Assembly (NCBI RefSeq): GCF_022879595.1 | Contig: NZ_CP084267.1 | Location: forward strand, 310,001 to 374,000 | Length of the DNA stretch: 64,000 bases | Direction of reading: 5' to 3' | Origin: Caballeronia sp. Lep1P3 | Lineage (GTDB): Bacteria; Pseudomonadota; Gammaproteobacteria; Burkholderiales; Burkholderiaceae | Shown: positions 25,997-33,188 of the stretch, in pieces | Numbering within the stretch: position 1 is the stretch's first letter | How the letters are laid out: every line of letters begins with the position of its first letter | The notes under the pieces: model-generated | The model's input: only the letters and a program-made list of their open reading frames with translations | Databases searched by the model: none | What the model was told of the DNA's origin: nothing | Position numbers and translations under genes: made by a program

Positions 25997-27241
25997 ATGA
26001 ACCCTGCCCATCCCGACGGCACGCTCATTGCCGCGCGCGCCGCGAATTCGCCGCGCTTCCTGCTGTTTATCGTGTGCTTTTTCGCTTCGGCGGGCCAGCT
26101 CGCGATCGATATCTACGTGCCGGCGCTGCCCGCGATGGCGCGTTACTTCGCGACTTCGCCGCAAGCCATTCAATCGAGCGTGTCGGGCTATATGGCCGCC
26201 TACGCGCTCGGGCAACTGACGCTCGGACCCGTCGCGGATGCGTATGGACGCAAGCGCGTTCTGGCCTTCGGCCTCGTCGTCTTCACGCTCGGATGCCTGC
26301 TCTCGCTCGCCGCGACGAACCTCGAAACCTTCCTGCTCGCGCGCTGCATGCAGGGCTTCGGCATCGCGGCGACGAACCTGCTCGCCAAGGCGATCATCAC
26401 CGATTCCTTCAAGGGGATGGCGCTGGTTCACGCGTTCACGTACATGTCGATTGCATGGGGTCTCGCGCCGATCGTCGCGCCGGTGATCGGCGCGCATCTG
26501 CAGACGGCTTTCGGCTGGAAGGCGTGTCTCGTCTTTCTGCTGCTTTATTCGATCGTCATGTGGGCGCTCGTCTGGCGTTATCGCGAAACCTTGCCACGGC
26601 CGGTGCGTCTCGAGCCGCGCACGCTGATTTCGAATGCGGGCAAGGTGCTCTCCAGTCCGGTGTTTCAGAGCTGCTTTCTCGCGCAAGGGCTTTGCTACAG
26701 CATCCTGCTCGTGTTCAACATCGTCGGGCCGTTCATGGTGCAGAACACGCTGCACAAGCCGCCAACGTTCTTCGGCTATCTCGCGCTCGAAATCGGCATG
26801 ATGTACTTCCTCGGCGGCCTCTCGAACCGCGTGCATGGGCCGCGCCTGCCGAGCGCGGAAGCGCGGCTGCGAATCGGATCGTGGGCGATGGCGGCGTCAG
26901 CGGTCGTCATGCTGCTGCTGGCGCTGACGGTCGGGCTGAGAGTCTGGACGCTCGCGATGCCCGTTCTCGTGATGGGCTTTTGCGCCGGCGCGATGTATCC
27001 GACGCTAATGGCGAAGGGCAATTCGCTGTTCCCGCATATCGCGGGATTGACGAGCGCGATCCTCGGATGCGCGTTGCTGCTCGTTTCGTCCGCGATGATG
27101 GGCCTCGCCGGATTCGTCTCCGTGCAGATTCTCGCGCCGCTGGCCGCGTTTTTCGTGGCGGTGGGGCTGACCGTCGTGTGGATGGTGGGCAAGCTCTTGC
27201 GGCACCTCGAAGGCGTAGAAGCGGCGAAGGGCCGGGGCTAA
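25997..27241 (+). CDS. Bcr/CflA-type MFS drug transporter
   Basis: A 414-residue, 12-helix transporter of the DHA1 group. IDIYVPALPAMARYF after helix 1 and LGQLTLGPVADAYGRKRVLAFG (motif A) are characteristic, as is ARCMQGFGIAA in helix 4. Such pumps export bicyclomycin-like compounds, sulfonamides or amino acids; no substrate can be assigned. ATG 25997 is the start by family N-terminus, with no clear Shine-Dalgarno. Its stop overlaps by three bases the stop of the convergent gene at 27238. Confidence 0.85.
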   Translation: MNPAHPDGTLIAARAANSPRFLLFIVCFFASAGQLAIDIYVPALPAMARYFATSPQAIQSSVSGYMAAYALGQLTLGPVADAYGRKRVLAFGLVVFTLGCLLSLAATNLETFLLARCMQGFGIAATNLLAKAIITDSFKGMALVHAFTYMSIAWGLAPIVAPVIGAHLQTAFGWKACLVFLLLYSIVMWALVWRYRETLPRPVRLEPRTLISNAGKVLSSPVFQSCFLAQGLCYSILLVFNIVGPFMVQNTLHKPPTFFGYLALEIGMMYFLGGLSNRVHGPRLPSAEARLRIGSWAMAASAVVMLLLALTVGLRVWTLAMPVLVMGFCAGAMYPTLMAKGNSLFPHIAGLTSAILGCALLLVSSAMMGLAGFVSVQILAPLAAFFVAVGLTVVWMVGKLLRHLEGVEAAKGRG

Positions 27242-27666
27242 CCCGGCGCGTCCGCTCTTTCGTAGGCTTGCGCGAATACTTCGGCATCGACGAGCCCGTA
27301 GTCGGACTCGTCGTACTGCACGAGCCAGTCGCCGGGATGACCTTCGACGACATCGCCTTGTCCGCCGACGCGCACCTTCATCGGAGCCGTCAGGCGAATG
27401 GCGTAGGCGAGCAGCGGGCGCTTGCGGTATCGGCCATCGCTGACGAGTTCATACGTCTCGTCGAACCGCTCGCGGCTCACTGGCCAGTTTTCGCCGAGCG
27501 TTCCCGTCAAGATGGCGTCGCCCGCGCGAAAGCGCACCGGGCCTTCGAGCGTGTCGCACGTTCCGTCGGCTTCGGCGAAGCGCACGTCGAGCGCAACGGG
27601 GCGCTTCACCACGCGCCATGCGTCGGGCGCGTGCCTGAGGTCGGGCATGTCGGGGGAGTCCGTCAT
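27238..27666 (-). CDS. Small protein of two internal repeats, coupled to the SLOG-membrane gene
   Basis: A 142-residue soluble protein with no signal peptide. Two internal copies of one pattern are visible: FRAGDAILTGTLGENWPVSRERFDETYE and, after about 40 residues, HPGDWLVQYDESDYGLVDAEVFAQAYE (shared pattern GD-x-(I/L)-(L/V)-x7-(W/Y)-x-(P/L)-V-x4-F-x2-(T/A)-Y-E). I have seen this pattern in uncharacterised phage-type and housekeeping proteins but cannot name a function. ATG 27666 overlaps the TGA of the upstream SLOG gene (ATGA), so translation is coupled. It is the last gene of the five-gene operon. Confidence 0.65.
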   Translation of the reverse strand: MTDSPDMPDLRHAPDAWRVVKRPVALDVRFAEADGTCDTLEGPVRFRAGDAILTGTLGENWPVSRERFDETYELVSDGRYRKRPLLAYAIRLTAPMKVRVGGQGDVVEGHPGDWLVQYDESDYGLVDAEVFAQAYERADAPG

Positions 27667-29612
27667 GGAATCTCGGTCTTCTGATAGTGGATCAGGTCGC
27701 GCCACTGGACGTTTTCGCCCGCGAGCAGATTCACGACGTTGAGCGCATCGAAGCGCAGGTTGGCCGCCGCCCGCCAGCCGTTCGCTTGCGGCGTCTTCAG
27801 CGCATCCTGCACCGCCTGGAGATAGGTGACGAGGCGTGCGTGCGCCTTTTTCGATTGCTGCGCGACGCGCCCGTATTCGAGCTTCGTCATCACGCCGTGC
27901 AACGCGGCGCCGAGCGCGGGCGTGGCGGCGCTGACGAGCGGCAGCAGGTGTTCGAGCTTCTCGAGAATGCGCGGGACGTGCGGGAAGGGCGCTTCGATGC
28001 CGCAGATTCGAGCGACCAGAATCAGCACATGCACCGCCGTGATGAAGGCGGCCACTTCGAAGATGCGTATTGCCAGGTGCTCCATTCGTTCGCGCAAGCC
28101 GCGCATGGAGCCGCACTTCTTGTCATGGAAGCCCAATTGTTGCTTTACGCTTTCTTCGAGCGGGGTAGCCAGTCTCACGAGCGATTCGGCTTCCAGGTCA
28201 TACGAACAGTATCGCGACGGAAGTCCGCCGGCGCTGGCCGAGCGCTGCAAGAGCCAGAGTTCCGCGTTGCGCAGCCTGAGATGCCCTTTCGTCAGGACGA
28301 AAAGCGGCTCGTTGAACGGCGGCGGAATGCCGAGAAACGGCGCGAGAATTCCCAGATAGCGTATCTGTTCCGCGATGAAGCGGTGGCCGAGCCAGAAGCG
28401 ATGCCAGTCGGCGCGGTGCGCTCGCCAGAACGAGACGAGAATGATGACGACGAAGACGCCCTCGGCGGCGCTCCACCAGGCGTCCCACTCGATGTCCGAG
28501 CGACGCGAAAGCAGCGACCACCCGGCGTCCGAGCTCACGATGCCGGCCACCGACGCGAACACCGCCGCCGACGAAAGCATGTACAGCAGCCAGATGCTGC
28601 TGGCGTGCCTGCGGCTTGCGATGTTCGCGCGTTCGTCGCTCCAGCGGTAGCGCATGCGCAGATGTTCCGTCGATGCCACCGCGTCCGCTTCGTCCGATGC
28701 GTGGGACGCCGCCGCGCCGCGTATCGCTCTCGATATGCCGTTCGCGATGCCGCGCGGGTTGAACATGAGCACGCCCCGCATGAGTTCGTCGAACCAGCCC
28801 ACGCGCCGTTCGATCCACGACGGCGGATGCCGCTCGCTTGCATACGACTTCAGCACTTCCGTGGCCTTGCTCGGCTTGACGTACTTCTCGTCGAGCGGAT
28901 TGAGCCGCCCACGCAATGTATCGATGAGCACGTCGTCGTGTGGGCCTCGCTTTTCGAAAAGCGAGCACAGCAGTCCTTCCGGCGGGATAGGCCGCGAGAA
29001 CTGATAAATGCAGTATTCGGTGACGCGATCGCCCGCGATCGTATGCAGTGCGCCGTGCATGTCGATCCACAGCACGGGCATTCCGCCCTTGACGGCCCGC
29101 TCGACGAGCCGCACGACGCCGCCCGCCTTGCCTTGCGGCCGCTCGCCGTCCCAGACCGCGATCAGCATGTCGGCATACGCGAGCGCCAGTTCGTCGCGCA
29201 TTTCGTAGACGGCGTCGTCATCGCGCGCGGCGTCCTCCTCCGTGCATCCGAACGCCACTGACCGGTCGGCCTTGTCGCGCGCAGCGCCGAGATGATCCGG
29301 CACGATGACGTCGACCGGCAATCGGAGCGCGTTCGCCGTCTTTATCGCGTGCTGGTCGACGCCGCTCGCCTGTCCCGTCAGCACGCGTATGGTCGTGCTT
29401 TCGGCCGCATAAAGCGAAGCGGGGAAGAGGTCGTCGAGACCGAGATCCGACCGATGAAGCTCGGCAAACGCGCCCAGCACGGCGTCCAGCCGCTTCAACG
29501 CCGGCCCCGGATTCCTGCCGCCCGCTTCCAGCCGTTCCTTGCGATGCCCGGAAACCAGCAGCGATATGGTTCGCGGAAGAAGCGGAAAGGCTTGCGGCGT
29601 GTCGATGGGCAT
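27663..29612 (-). CDS. SLOG-domain protein with four-helix membrane (SLATT-like) module
   Basis: A 649-residue protein. Residues about 14-195 form a Rossmann-like SLOG domain: ISLLVSGHR at strand 1, RVLTGQASGVD with the Gly-rich loop, then ALAYADMLIAVWDG and GKAGGVVRLVERAVKGGMPVLWID. The C-terminal half holds four hydrophobic segments in two pairs, about 338-359, 381-395, 518-537 and 556-575; the first pair is followed by WHRFWLGHRFIAEQIRYL, resembling SLATT/DUF4231 effector helices. SLOG domains bind nucleotides, including NAD-derived signals in Thoeris ThsA. I infer a ligand-gated membrane effector. ATG 29612 is chosen over an upstream TTG at 29648; neither has a clear Shine-Dalgarno. The domain naming is by eye. 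Confidence 0.7.
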   Translation of the reverse strand: MPIDTPQAFPLLPRTISLLVSGHRKERLEAGGRNPGPALKRLDAVLGAFAELHRSDLGLDDLFPASLYAAESTTIRVLTGQASGVDQHAIKTANALRLPVDVIVPDHLGAARDKADRSVAFGCTEEDAARDDDAVYEMRDELALAYADMLIAVWDGERPQGKAGGVVRLVERAVKGGMPVLWIDMHGALHTIAGDRVTEYCIYQFSRPIPPEGLLCSLFEKRGPHDDVLIDTLRGRLNPLDEKYVKPSKATEVLKSYASERHPPSWIERRVGWFDELMRGVLMFNPRGIANGISRAIRGAAASHASDEADAVASTEHLRMRYRWSDERANIASRRHASSIWLLYMLSSAAVFASVAGIVSSDAGWSLLSRRSDIEWDAWWSAAEGVFVVIILVSFWRAHRADWHRFWLGHRFIAEQIRYLGILAPFLGIPPPFNEPLFVLTKGHLRLRNAELWLLQRSASAGGLPSRYCSYDLEAESLVRLATPLEESVKQQLGFHDKKCGSMRGLRERMEHLAIRIFEVAAFITAVHVLILVARICGIEAPFPHVPRILEKLEHLLPLVSAATPALGAALHGVMTKLEYGRVAQQSKKAHARLVTYLQAVQDALKTPQANGWRAAANLRFDALNVVNLLAGENVQWRDLIHYQKTEIP

Positions 29613-29669
29613 GGTCGTCGTGGGCGAGCGTGCAGGATGTCCTTTCAACCCGAGAGCCGGTTGCCGCCG

Positions 29670-30488
29670 CTATTGAACGCATTGCACGAGCGCGGAGATC
29701 GCGCGCAGTGTGCGCTGCGGGTCCGGACTCGAACGCTTCGGCTCATCTCGCTCCGCGCCGGCGCGCGTGCGCAAGAATCCGGCGAGGTCGCTCGCGCGCA
29801 CCGCGACGGCCATATCGGGTCGTGCCTGATAACGTCCGACGATCATGCCGAGCAAAAAACCCTGATCGTCGATGACCGGCCCGCCGCTGTTGCCTTCATA
29901 GAGCCGCGCGTGAATCGCAAGGAGACGGCGCGCGTCGATGTCCACGGTGCCATCCACGGAACCGCGCGTGAACACGGGCAGCAGCGGCGTCGAAGGTGTC
30001 AGACCGAAGGCGATGGTCCACGCCGCGACACGCGCGCCGGCCGGCCCCGCGCGCGCAACCGCGATGCGGCTCACGCTTCGATGCGTCGCGAGCACGGCGA
30101 CGTCGAGCGCGGTATCCACCGACACCAGCGAGGCGACGAGCCGCGAGTCGTCGTCGGGCCAGACCTCGATGCGCTTGCAGCCTCGCAACGTATGCGCCGT
30201 CGTGAGCAGGTCGCCGTCGCGCGCGACGAAAAACGCGGTCCCGCTTCGACGAAGCCCCGGCCGCTGCGCAAGCGGCGCGGATTCCTCGACGGAACTTCCC
30301 ACGCGCGATACGTCGATGCGCTCGCGCGATGCCGCGAGCGCATCGGTGCGGAGCATGCCCGCCGCGAGGATCGCGCACAGAACCGGCGATGGACCGCGGT
30401 GCCTGGCCGGGCCCCGAGCGGCGGCATCACTGCTGGGCCAGTTGCCACTCTCCCTTCGAATTGCGGCACGCGTGCGCATTCTGCTCAT
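29670..30488 (-). CDS. Trypsin-like serine protease
   Basis: A 272-residue S1-fold protease with a complete triad: His98 in LLTTAHTL, Asp128 in TALDVAVLATH, and Ser200 in EGNSGGPVID. No PDZ domain follows. ATG 30488 has a good Shine-Dalgarno (AAGGAAA) and overlaps the preceding lipoprotein gene by 62 bases. The N-terminus is long and basic, with a hydrophobic stretch SPVLCAILAAGML (34-46) before ALAAS, which could be a signal peptide with a long n-region; an alternative start is the Met at residue 45. A periplasmic site is likely but not certain. It is the third gene of the TIR-SLOG operon. Confidence 0.8.
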   Translation of the reverse strand: MSRMRTRAAIRRESGNWPSSDAAARGPARHRGPSPVLCAILAAGMLRTDALAASRERIDVSRVGSSVEESAPLAQRPGLRRSGTAFFVARDGDLLTTAHTLRGCKRIEVWPDDDSRLVASLVSVDTALDVAVLATHRSVSRIAVARAGPAGARVAAWTIAFGLTPSTPLLPVFTRGSVDGTVDIDARRLLAIHARLYEGNSGGPVIDDQGFLLGMIVGRYQARPDMAVAVRASDLAGFLRTRAGAERDEPKRSSPDPQRTLRAISALVQCVQ

Positions 30489-30915
30489 AGGTCTTTCCTT
30501 CTTTTACATACGACTCGGTGAAATCCCGGCACGTCTGCGCGTTCGCCGATGCCGTGTAGCCATTCAGTGGCTTGATCGTGCCGGAGTTGCCGGTCTTGGT
30601 GTTGCGCCAGTGCTTCGGCTGGCTGTTCTTCGAGCTTTGCAGCGCCTCCTGCAGCGCCCGGTCGCGCGCTTCGCGATCGCGCTCGTCCATTTCATGCCCG
30701 ATCACGCCGCCGAGCAGTCCGCCCGCGAGACCGCCCGCGACGATCGCGCTCGCCTTGCCGTGTCCGAAGAGGCCGCCGAGCGCCGCGCCCGCGCCCGCGC
30801 CGAGCAGTGCGCCCGAAGTCGTCTTGTTCATTCCGTTCGACTGGTCTTCCGCGCATCCGGATGCGAGGAGGCTCGCCGCGAGCGTGAGGATCATTGCCGG
30901 GAGGTATCTGTTCAT
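30427..30915 (-). CDS. Glycine-zipper outer-membrane lipoprotein
   Basis: A 162-residue lipoprotein. The signal MNRYLPAMILTLAASLLASGC ends in a lipobox with Cys21. Residues about 34-74 are a glycine zipper (ALLGAGAGAALGGLFGHGKA, then IVAGGLAGGLLGGVIGHEMD) of the Rick_17kDa_Anti/2TM type, followed by a charged helix and a tail with Cys residues, CRDFTESYVKEGK and ACRNSKGEW. Such proteins sit in the outer membrane and some span or oligomerise in it. ATG 30915 has AGGAGA upstream. It follows the TIR gene by 39 bases and overlaps the protease gene. Confidence 0.82.
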   Translation of the reverse strand: MNRYLPAMILTLAASLLASGCAEDQSNGMNKTTSGALLGAGAGAALGGLFGHGKASAIVAGGLAGGLLGGVIGHEMDERDREARDRALQEALQSSKNSQPKHWRNTKTGNSGTIKPLNGYTASANAQTCRDFTESYVKEGKTYEQNAHACRNSKGEWQLAQQ

Positions 30916-30954
30916 CGCTTGTCTCCTGGATCAGCCGGTGCGGGCTCGCGGCGG

Positions 30955-32421
30955 CTATTTGCTCCAGACGCCGGCGCGCGAGCGCCTTGCCTCGTCCTGC
31001 GCGGCGCCATACTGCGCGGGCGAGTTATCGCGGATGCGCGCCCATCCGAGGCGCACGGCGTGCGCCGCGACGTCGTGTCCGTTCGCAAAGCACTGGTACG
31101 CGTCGTCGTGCGCGAAGCATCGGACGATGTTGCCTTCGCTCTGGAGATAGCGCTGCATCGCGCGCGCCGGCCGTCCATCCTCTCCGCGAATGCCGTACAG
31201 ATTGACGATCTTCCCCGCGACGATGAGTGCGCCCGAGTCGAGAATCTGGTCGACGCTGCCCTCGAGGTCCGGCGCGGGGGCACGCGCCGTGGCGTTGTCC
31301 GTCGGCGGCGTTGGCGTTGGCGTCGGCGTCGGCGTTCGTGTCGCTGAAGGAGACGGCGCGGGCACAGGCGCGGCGACGGCAGGCGCGGGAGGCGTGGCCA
31401 GCGGCGCCGACGCCGGAGCGATCGACGACGCCTGAGGCGTCTCGTGCCGCATGAAGACCGCGACGAGCGTGCCCGCCACCACGACCGCCCCAGCCGCCGA
31501 TACCATCAGCACGCCGACGCGCCTTCCGCGCGCGGGCGCGACGTTGCGCTGCGCCATATAGCCGGGCATGACGGCGGTGCCGCGGCCCGTCGCGGGCGCG
31601 AACGGCTCCGCCTCTGCGTCGAGCACTTCGGGGTGTTCGAGATGCTCGACCGGCTTTTGGGCCGTTTCCCTGCGCCGGGCTTCTTCGGCCGCTCGCGCCG
31701 CCGCTTCGCGCTGCCGCGCTGTTTCCGCCGCCGCCCGGGCTTGCGCTGCTTGCGCCGCCTGAGCCGCGTCGCGTTGCCGCGCTTTCTCCGCTTCGCGCGC
31801 CGCCGCTTCCCGCTGACGGCCTTCCTCCGCAGCCGCCGCTATCGCGTCGCGTGCGGGGCCGGTTCCGCTCGAGCTTCCGCTTGCGCTTCCGATTCCGGCC
31901 GCATGCTCCGCCTTCGAAACCGCCACGGCGACCTTGAGGATGTTCTCCGCGAGTCCATCGACCCATGTCCAGACTTCGTGCGAACGCACGTCCGCGTGAC
32001 GCAGCGGCCTGAAGTCGATCCACTGATGACGGCGCAGCGCGTCGAGGTCCGCGCCGAAGGCGGTTTCGTCGGCGCTGAACTGATCGACGCCGACGTAGAG
32101 AATCGGAAAGATGAGATCGTCGCGGCCCAGATCGATCATGCGTTGCCGAAACGACCGGAACTCCGCGAGGCAGTTCGGGCTTTTCAGGTAACGCGGGCTG
32201 ACGATCGGCATGAAGAAGACGGTCTGCCCAATCGTTCGTTCGATGGAATTGGCCCAGTCCGCGCCGGGCGGAATCGCCTGAATGTCCTGCCAGATGGTGA
32301 TGTCCGCGCCGTACTGCAACGCGATGGCCTTTCCCACGATCGTGCGCAGCTGGCTCAGATGCCCGTCGCTATGCGCGTCGTCGCTGCGGGCATAGCTCCA
32401 GAAACCCACTGGGTTGGACAT
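30955..32421 (-). CDS. TIR-domain protein with coiled coil, membrane helix and SNase-like tail
   Basis: A 488-residue protein. Residues 4-160 are a TIR domain: FWSYARSD at 7-14, BB-loop-like IWQDIQAIPPGADW at 43-56, and SPNCLAEF with Glu87, the expected NADase glutamate. Residues about 190-256 are an Ala/Arg/Glu coiled coil, 302-324 a membrane helix, 327-400 a Pro/Ala/Thr linker with a TPTP run, and 400-488 a degenerate staphylococcal-nuclease-like (OB) domain: IVNLYGIRGEDG, HDVAAHAVRLGWAR, YGAAQDEARRSRAGVW. Most SNase catalytic residues are not apparent. The predicted topology puts TIR in the cytoplasm and the tail in the periplasm. ATG 32421 has CGGAG about 10 bases upstream. First gene of the operon. 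Confidence 0.82.
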   Translation of the reverse strand: MSNPVGFWSYARSDDAHSDGHLSQLRTIVGKAIALQYGADITIWQDIQAIPPGADWANSIERTIGQTVFFMPIVSPRYLKSPNCLAEFRSFRQRMIDLGRDDLIFPILYVGVDQFSADETAFGADLDALRRHQWIDFRPLRHADVRSHEVWTWVDGLAENILKVAVAVSKAEHAAGIGSASGSSSGTGPARDAIAAAAEEGRQREAAAREAEKARQRDAAQAAQAAQARAAAETARQREAAARAAEEARRRETAQKPVEHLEHPEVLDAEAEPFAPATGRGTAVMPGYMAQRNVAPARGRRVGVLMVSAAGAVVVAGTLVAVFMRHETPQASSIAPASAPLATPPAPAVAAPVPAPSPSATRTPTPTPTPTPPTDNATARAPAPDLEGSVDQILDSGALIVAGKIVNLYGIRGEDGRPARAMQRYLQSEGNIVRCFAHDDAYQCFANGHDVAAHAVRLGWARIRDNSPAQYGAAQDEARRSRAGVWSK

Positions 32422-33188
32422 GTGCAGATGCTCCGAAGAGGACGGGCGAGCGGTTCTCGGTTGGCCAGTAGCAAGTGCCGGTAAACATCAGGATGCCTAA
32501 CCCGGCGTGACGGCAAGAGCCGTTCGCGCGGGCATGGCGATGCAAAGGATAGCTAACAGGAATTCGGATCGTGCCGCCTCGTCGGGGGTGAACCGCGATT
32601 CGTGTCATTCCGGTCGTTGCTGGTGCTAATCGTTGCGCGGATCGATTTAGGTATAGGCAATCGCGAGTCCGTTAGCAAGTTACGAAACGCGTTTCGGTTT
32701 CCTCCGGGCCGATGGGCGTTGCGGATTCGCCGGTCGATGCTTCGCACAGGCGGTTGACGCACATCGCGAACGCGCCGGGCTTTCAAGCCGCCGCGTTACG
32801 GTTGCCTTACGCGAGCTGGCGCATGCATGAGCGCGATGCGTGCGGTAGCGCACATTGCGCGCGGGCGGCCACCGCTGACATTCGCATCTGCCGGCGATCG
32901 TCCGGGCGTGCGCCGCCGGAAGCCCGCCCGCTTGCGTCCTTTTTACGTTGCCATCAGTTTTATTTATCGGGCGCATGCGCGAGCAAGCCGCGCGCCGCGC
33001 CCGCGAACCCGCCCGGGCTGGCCCTCCGGCACGCGTCATCGCAAGCGCCGTCAATGCCGGTCATGGTTTACGCCCAGTTCCGCGCGATAGCGCCGGGCCG
33101 TATCTTTCCCTTCAGTTTTCGCAACATACCGGGCCGCGTGCATTCGACGAGCGCCTGATTGCCCGGCACCTCACGGAGCACCCTCATC
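32422..33188. other. Long divergent intergenic region between TIR operon and gallate operon
   Basis: About 770 bases with no credible gene. The open frames in it are Arg/Ala/Pro rich and have no ribosome binding sites. The part from about 32480 to 32700 is less GC-rich than the coding DNA around it and contains the 14-base palindrome at 32683. It must hold the promoters of both divergent operons. I see no tRNA, integrase remnant or direct repeat. Confidence 0.6.
32683..32696. promoter_or_regulatory. 14-base perfect palindrome, candidate operator
   Basis: CGAAACG-CGTTTCG. The core AAACGCGTTT resembles operators of LacI/GalR-family repressors. It lies about 260 bases before the TIR operon start and about 490 before the gallate dioxygenase start. 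No LacI-type gene is adjacent, so the regulator is unknown. Confidence 0.45.

Follow-up and report, generated by a model that had tools for sequence, protein, structure and literature searches.

What does an operon do in which a TIR protein is encoded in one series with a SLOG membrane protein and proteins of the cell envelope? The question is raised by positions 27238-32421 of a 64,000-nucleotide stretch of the soil bacterium Caballeronia sp. Lep1P3 (contig NZ_CP084267.1), hereafter the window, for which an initial annotation had proposed an undescribed Thoeris-like defence or signalling system. We found, from domains, folds, gene order, recurrence and gene company, that the operon belongs with the predicted TIR/SLOG/SLATT conflict systems, as a variant linked to the envelope. 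With a probability of about one half, it would be a mobile conflict operon, most likely anti-phage by abortive infection, in which a nucleotide signal passes from the TIR to the SLOG domain and drives a membrane effector. The TIR-SLATT core is already known as a published prediction, whereas the envelope module and the recurring PGDYG partner were not found in the literature searched.

Five minus-strand genes are present, with exactly the spacing first described: TIR, a 39-base gap, lipoprotein, a 62-base overlap, protease, a 57-base gap, SLOG-SLATT, a 4-base ATGA overlap and PGDYG. Their features are:

30955-32421, minus strand: TIR protein, 488 aa, with a TIR domain, a helical region, one transmembrane helix and an SNase-like C-terminal domain
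31918-32421, minus strand: TIR domain, residues 1-168
32161-32163, minus strand: codon of Glu87, an NADase-type glutamate, invariant in 24 of 24 aligned rows
31456-31512, minus strand: transmembrane helix, residues 304-322, hydropathy 2.4, N-terminus predicted cytoplasmic
30958-31275, minus strand: degenerate SNase-like domain with two conserved cysteines, probably periplasmic
30427-30915, minus strand: 17-kDa-antigen/glycine-zipper lipoprotein, 162 aa, PF16998 (17kDa_Anti_2) 50.1 bits, PF13488 (Gly-zipper_Omp) 29.8 bits
29670-30488, minus strand: trypsin-like protease, 272 aa, with a hydrophobic N-terminal segment, PF13365 (Trypsin_2) 68 bits
27663-29612, minus strand: SLOG-SLATT membrane protein, 649 aa
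28893-29585, minus strand: SLOG domain, residues 10-240
28410-28667, minus strand: membrane helix hairpin 1, residues 316-401, SLATT-type, from the structure model
27879-28181, minus strand: membrane helix hairpin 2, residues 478-578, from the structure model
27238-27666, minus strand: PGDYG protein, 142 aa, two-repeat, its translation coupled to that of the SLOG gene, PF14083 75.3 bits (cut-off 27)

The five proteins and known systems

The TIR protein matched the Pfam family TIR_2 with 47.7 bits (cut-off 28), and matched neither ThsB_TIR (PF08937, E up to 0.1) nor the PADLOC ThsB model. Glu87, which we take to be the catalytic glutamate of NADase TIR domains, is present as initially annotated, and many positions near it are likewise invariant in the 24 rows; NADase activity of the domain is predicted on this sequence basis. 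Ahead of the transmembrane helix, the net charge is positive in 15 of 15 relatives (window included), and the two cysteines of the C-terminal domain are kept in position in 15 of 15. This domain matched SNase (PF00565) in all 12 rows at a threshold of E 10, with a best value of 7e-6 and the window copy at 0.032, below the cut-off. In a PDB search, its SNase match (E 0.093) was outscored by an unrelated ribosomal protein, and a search of the same genome for a canonical SNase as reference returned the window domain alone (E 0.216, below the cut-off). It is probably non-catalytic, the loss of catalytic residues being judged by eye. The same TIR subtype (window 31918-32421; P0040-P0057), often 54-69% identical, is fused elsewhere to FGE-sulfatase or WD40, and two more TIR genes lie elsewhere in the same genome (L001, L003).

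The lipobox Cys21 of the lipoprotein was kept in the four aligned sequences (L009 left out), and His99, Asp129 and Ser201 of the protease, presumably its catalytic triad, in five of five. The glycine-zipper lipoprotein, the trypsin-like protease and, with the probably periplasmic tail of the TIR protein, the envelope components of the initial annotation are all supported. Assignment of the protease to HtrA/DegP was rejected, as it scored 41 bits against degP_htrA_DO (cut-off 416) and the Pfam search found no PDZ domain in it. With the PADLOC models, the protease domain gave a match at E 3.2e-12 and the TIR protein matched non-Thoeris models weakly (best E 3.1e-4).

For the fourth protein, the fold matches of the SLOG domain include ThsA and TRPM-type proteins, and SLATT-type helices follow in the same chain, in agreement with the SLOG-membrane fusion first proposed. 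At E up to 0.1, members of its family matched DUF4231 (16 of 22, best E 8.2e-5), SLATT_3 (7 of 22) and SLATT_1 (5 of 22); the window protein itself matched none of the three at this threshold, and the SLATT membrane module is a family-level assignment made from these profiles. No repeat of hairpin 1 was detectable in hairpin 2 (hhalign probability 0.3 percent, E 0.19), so an internal duplication was rejected. TRPM2-type channels also have a SLOG-fold N-terminal region and then membrane helices in one chain, but their membrane part is another one; the superposition is loose beyond SLOG, and the likeness shown is that of the SLOG region.

In the predicted TIR/SLOG/SLATT conflict systems, reportedly described by Burroughs et al. 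in 2015, a signal-producing enzyme of TIR type is encoded next to a membrane module of SLATT type, with SLOG as the sensor. The window has the SLOG-fold sensor, the SLATT module (at family level) and the TIR enzyme in one operon, but differs in carrying SLOG and membrane helices in one protein and in its membrane-anchored TIR, SNase-like domain, lipoprotein, protease and PGDYG.

We compared the operon with the available text of PMC9503650, PMC7159879, PMC11204291, PMC12948488 and PMC9122126. In Thoeris, as the available parts of PMC11204291 and PMC12948488 have it, TIR makes a signal derived from nicotinamide adenine dinucleotide (NAD) and SLOG binds it. By analogy, the operon is best read as working like Thoeris, yet not as Thoeris, because a SIR2 or macro domain, the defining effector feature, is lacking: for all five proteins, searches of the SIR2, macro and ThsB_TIR models at E up to 0.1 came back empty. 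Like type I (ThsB TIR with the SIR2-SLOG protein ThsA), it combines a TIR with a SLOG sensor on the effector, but it has no SIR2, a TIR_2 match instead of one to ThsB_TIR, membrane helices instead of an NADase effector, and three extra genes. Like type II (ThsB with a transmembrane-macro ThsA), it combines a TIR with a predicted nucleotide-sensing membrane effector, but SLOG replaces macro and the helices are SLATT-type. Of the system first proposed, the Thoeris-like logic and the TIR-SLOG synteny were supported and an undescribed core was not, since the available text of PMC9503650 already predicts the TIR-SLATT pairing; that of PMC9503650 and PMC7159879 predicts SLATT as a membrane effector.

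Recurrence and gene company

The complete five-gene order was also found in three Burkholderiaceae loci: L137 (genome G107), L008 (Paraburkholderia lacunae) and L009 (P. oxyphila). In Caballeronia glebae (L007, L138), the contig starts inside the TIR gene and the remaining four genes follow. Identity of the SLOG protein to that of the window is 48% in L137, 46% in L008, 44% in L009 and 47% in C. glebae. The flanks of these loci (10 kb on each side of the window operon, for the others whatever flank was available, for L138 a single side) had no common blastn match at 1e-10, and the tblastx matches, in two pairs, were weak (37-38% over 76-97 residues). The cassette looks mobile, because its flanks are unrelated and only 3 of 58 same-genus genomes carry it, a distribution that also speaks against a conserved housekeeping operon. 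Spread of the cassette by plasmids was rejected, as the SLOG protein matched one of 72,556 plasmid records (22% identity over 69%), a record set from which the source genome of the window, or one very close to it, may be missing. Across the class, the SLOG profile matched in 5 of 274 genomes (own included), and viral contigs gave 16 partial matches to the SLOG protein, mostly inside its SLOG part. A literature search, mostly without subscription papers, returned no description of this five-gene arrangement.

Through the SLOG-SLATT protein alone, we collected the best 80 of at least 136 confirmed places, including three five-gene loci. A TIR gene lies at most 2 kb from the SLOG-SLATT gene in 48 of the 80 (two of them five-gene loci), 36 of these having both genes on one strand; because the TIR profile came from the same 80 loci, detection in them was favoured. 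The count of 48 includes L083, despite overlapping SLOG and TIR open reading frame calls, and leaves out L054, despite a TIR adjoining its first SLOG match. The density of TIR genes was 0.25 per kb up to a distance of 1 kb, 0.08 between 1 and 2 kb, and 0-0.024 farther away. TIR-SLOG synteny is conserved.

The partner TIR proteins run through Pfam carry WD40, TPR, FHA, DUF4189, SIR2-like or nSTAND1 modules. A fourth same-genus genome, G034, has a distant SLOG homologue only, in the order SLOG-SLATT, TIR, nSTAND1 (L139); next to this set lies a remnant that aligns over 88 residues (44%) with the C-terminal portion of the TIR protein in the window, which gives the impression that one system has taken the place of another. 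In G002 (L140:4380-7957), SLOG-SLATT, PGDYG and patatin genes stand in series at a contig end, the patatin scoring 127 bits against the PADLOC phospholipase-effector model. The SLOG-SLATT gene has TrkA_N-RyR as neighbour in L012 and TrkA_N in L021. These nSTAND1 and patatin neighbours, together with the sporadic distribution, favour a conflict role.

PGDYG, TIR and SLATT in phages

The last gene, initially described as coding for a two-repeat protein, is named PGDYG by Pfam, and a full-text literature search, mostly without subscription papers, found no paper on this family. PGDYG matched in 55 of 58 same-genus genomes, in most as one copy away from any such operon, in 8 of 299 genomes sampled from its own phylum (own genome included) and in 2 of 299 from the phylum of G066.

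Among 50,697 phage records, the window PGDYG found 42 (tblastn, E 0.01). A SLATT_1/DUF4231 protein from one PGDYG-positive phage found 33 records (E 1e-5), a second SLATT query also 33, and all 33 SLATT_1-positive records carry PGDYG as well, within the 42. Of the 42 records, 22 were examined, and in 16 of these loci PGDYG, TIR and SLATT genes stand in a row, with TIR in the middle and PGDYG convergent to the pair; six of the scanned loci had supplied the TIR profile and four the SLATT profile, and Pfam found ThsB_TIR in those six TIR genes and SLATT/DUF4231 in those four and two more. The positive loci span Staphylococcus, Streptococcus (phages and satellites) and Enterococcus and, because many records are near-duplicates, the independent cases perhaps number about nine. 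The PGDYG-TIR-SLATT sets of L148-L154, L156 and L161-L168 lie close to the integrase and repressor genes of temperate phages, or satellites, of Firmicutes. These phage and satellite sets resemble the window in bringing the three genes together, but differ from it in their ThsB_TIR-type TIR, a stand-alone SLATT_1 without SLOG and a short convergent PGDYG, with no such envelope genes seen. The TIR-SLATT pair of SN10 and Javan281 has already been published, in a paper whose main text does not contain PGDYG.

Judging by its gene neighbourhood, PGDYG would work together with TIR and SLATT, most likely in a regulatory role. It might instead take part in recognition, since some PGDYG genes are found among the capsid genes of phages. 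Such PGDYG-like genes were seen in the Streptococcus phages Javan91 (L155:3408-3662) and IPP24 (L157:3378-3620).

Other PGDYG genes have other company. In G604, PGDYG (51 bits) overlaps a convergently oriented SLATT gene (84 bits). In G729 (L181:4159-9347), PGDYG lies between a membrane protein that is SLATT-like by eye and a DUF4062-TPR protein with a weak NACHT match; it was left uncounted as a SLATT-PGDYG case (DUF4231 E 0.068, no SLOG profile match). Profile search of L183 found PGDYG without TIR or SLATT, and in L179, the 3.2-kb core of L184, PGDYG alone was found. In Aerococcus phage AVP (L158:1151-2755), PGDYG is near genes annotated as a PnuC nicotinamide mononucleotide transporter and a nucleoside 2-deoxyribosyltransferase.

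Proposed circuit and rival explanations

In the circuit that we propose, the TIR protein would be anchored in the inner membrane, the TIR domain facing the cytoplasm and the SNase-like, probably non-catalytic domain lying in the periplasm. An attack would be sensed, perhaps via the envelope-side parts (SNase-like domain, lipoprotein and protease), and the TIR domain would then convert NAD+ to an ADP-ribose (ADPR)-type signal. Binding of this signal by the SLOG domain of the fourth protein would switch the attached SLATT-type helices, so that membrane integrity or potential would be lost, with PGDYG acting as partner of the TIR/SLATT pair, most likely as regulator. The sequence of signal, binding and membrane action is inferred because Thoeris works so in the available text of PMC11204291 and PMC12948488, and the envelope components of the operon suggest that the cue is read in the periplasm.

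Several findings weigh against this circuit. No TIR gene was found within 2 kb in 32 of the 80 SLOG-SLATT loci, some of which have short flanks (in L007, TIR is cut by the contig end), and some TIR-less loci adjoin metabolic genes, as judged by eye. The window SLOG-SLATT protein had no Pfam or PADLOC match. The lipoprotein and protease types were found in five-gene loci only, save one remote lipoprotein-like match in L048, and PGDYG was present in only 3 of the 80 loci, all five-gene. The five strong PGDYG genes of sampled relatives (L173-L177) had no TIR, SLATT or SLOG within 1.5 kb, and 6 of the 22 phage loci had PGDYG only (Javan91, IPP24, Aerococcus AVP, Lactobacillus LfeInf, Caulobacter BL64 and Karma). 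Lastly, the genes on either side of the operon are metabolic or transport genes.

This last point counts in favour of a pathway of envelope-stress signalling and not of immunity, in which protease, lipoprotein and periplasmic domain would watch the wall or outer membrane and TIR-SLOG-SLATT would tune ion flux or growth. Three of the five genes bear envelope features, and MarP and DegP/DegS-type models give the protease scores that stay under their cut-offs. We consider this explanation rather unlikely, as the cassette is sporadic within its genus and sits at unrelated sites, and the relatives of its core keep conflict-type gene company.

Still less probable is a TIR protein that itself kills by depleting NAD+, with SLOG-SLATT and PGDYG restraining it or reporting NAD-derived metabolites. 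There are known effectors of the TIR NADase kind, the structures closest to the TIR domain include SPARTA and Cat1 (Foldseek ranking, from a weak TIR model), and proteins of the same operon that have a nucleotide-type SLOG fold might serve as regulators. SLATT is nevertheless the part predicted as membrane effector (available text of PMC9503650 and PMC7159879), and distant SLOG-SLATT genes stand beside TrkA_N-RyR (L012) or patatin (G002) with no TIR seen adjoining, the G002 contig ending just upstream. That the TIR domain is a non-enzymatic scaffold assembling membrane proteins by contact is the least probable: all parts except PGDYG and the protease are in or facing one membrane and a long helical stretch separates the TIR domain from the transmembrane helix, but Glu87 and many neighbouring positions are invariant and the SLOG partners suggest a nucleotide ligand.

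A bolder form of the proposed TIR-to-SLOG circuit, which we hold only tentatively, is an outside-in pathway like that of Toll receptors, in which a periplasmic sensor with protease and lipoprotein would act through one helix on a TIR messenger enzyme and a SLOG-gated effector, and PGDYG would be a recurring TIR-SLATT partner, possibly a phage recogniser. If true, TIR immunity would extend to the cell envelope, with an outside sensor, one helix and an inside TIR enzyme in a topology like that of animal Toll receptors. The PGDYG family would gain a role open to testing, as its gene accompanies TIR and SLATT in Burkholderiaceae and Firmicute phages alike, and the short phage sets would be a compact version of the circuit for dissection.

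As to the site of the operon, Caballeronia plasmids match the first 12 kb of the window at 84.5-85.7% identity (five records covering at least 80%), and because of this match the window is most likely part of a Caballeronia secondary replicon. Positions 27242-33158 are a variable site: plasmids of Caballeronia sp. Sq4a and M1242 share both flanks of this site (efflux transporter and gallate dioxygenase), with different genes between them, namely MipA/OmpV, hydrolase, diguanylate cyclase/phosphodiesterase and hypothetical genes.

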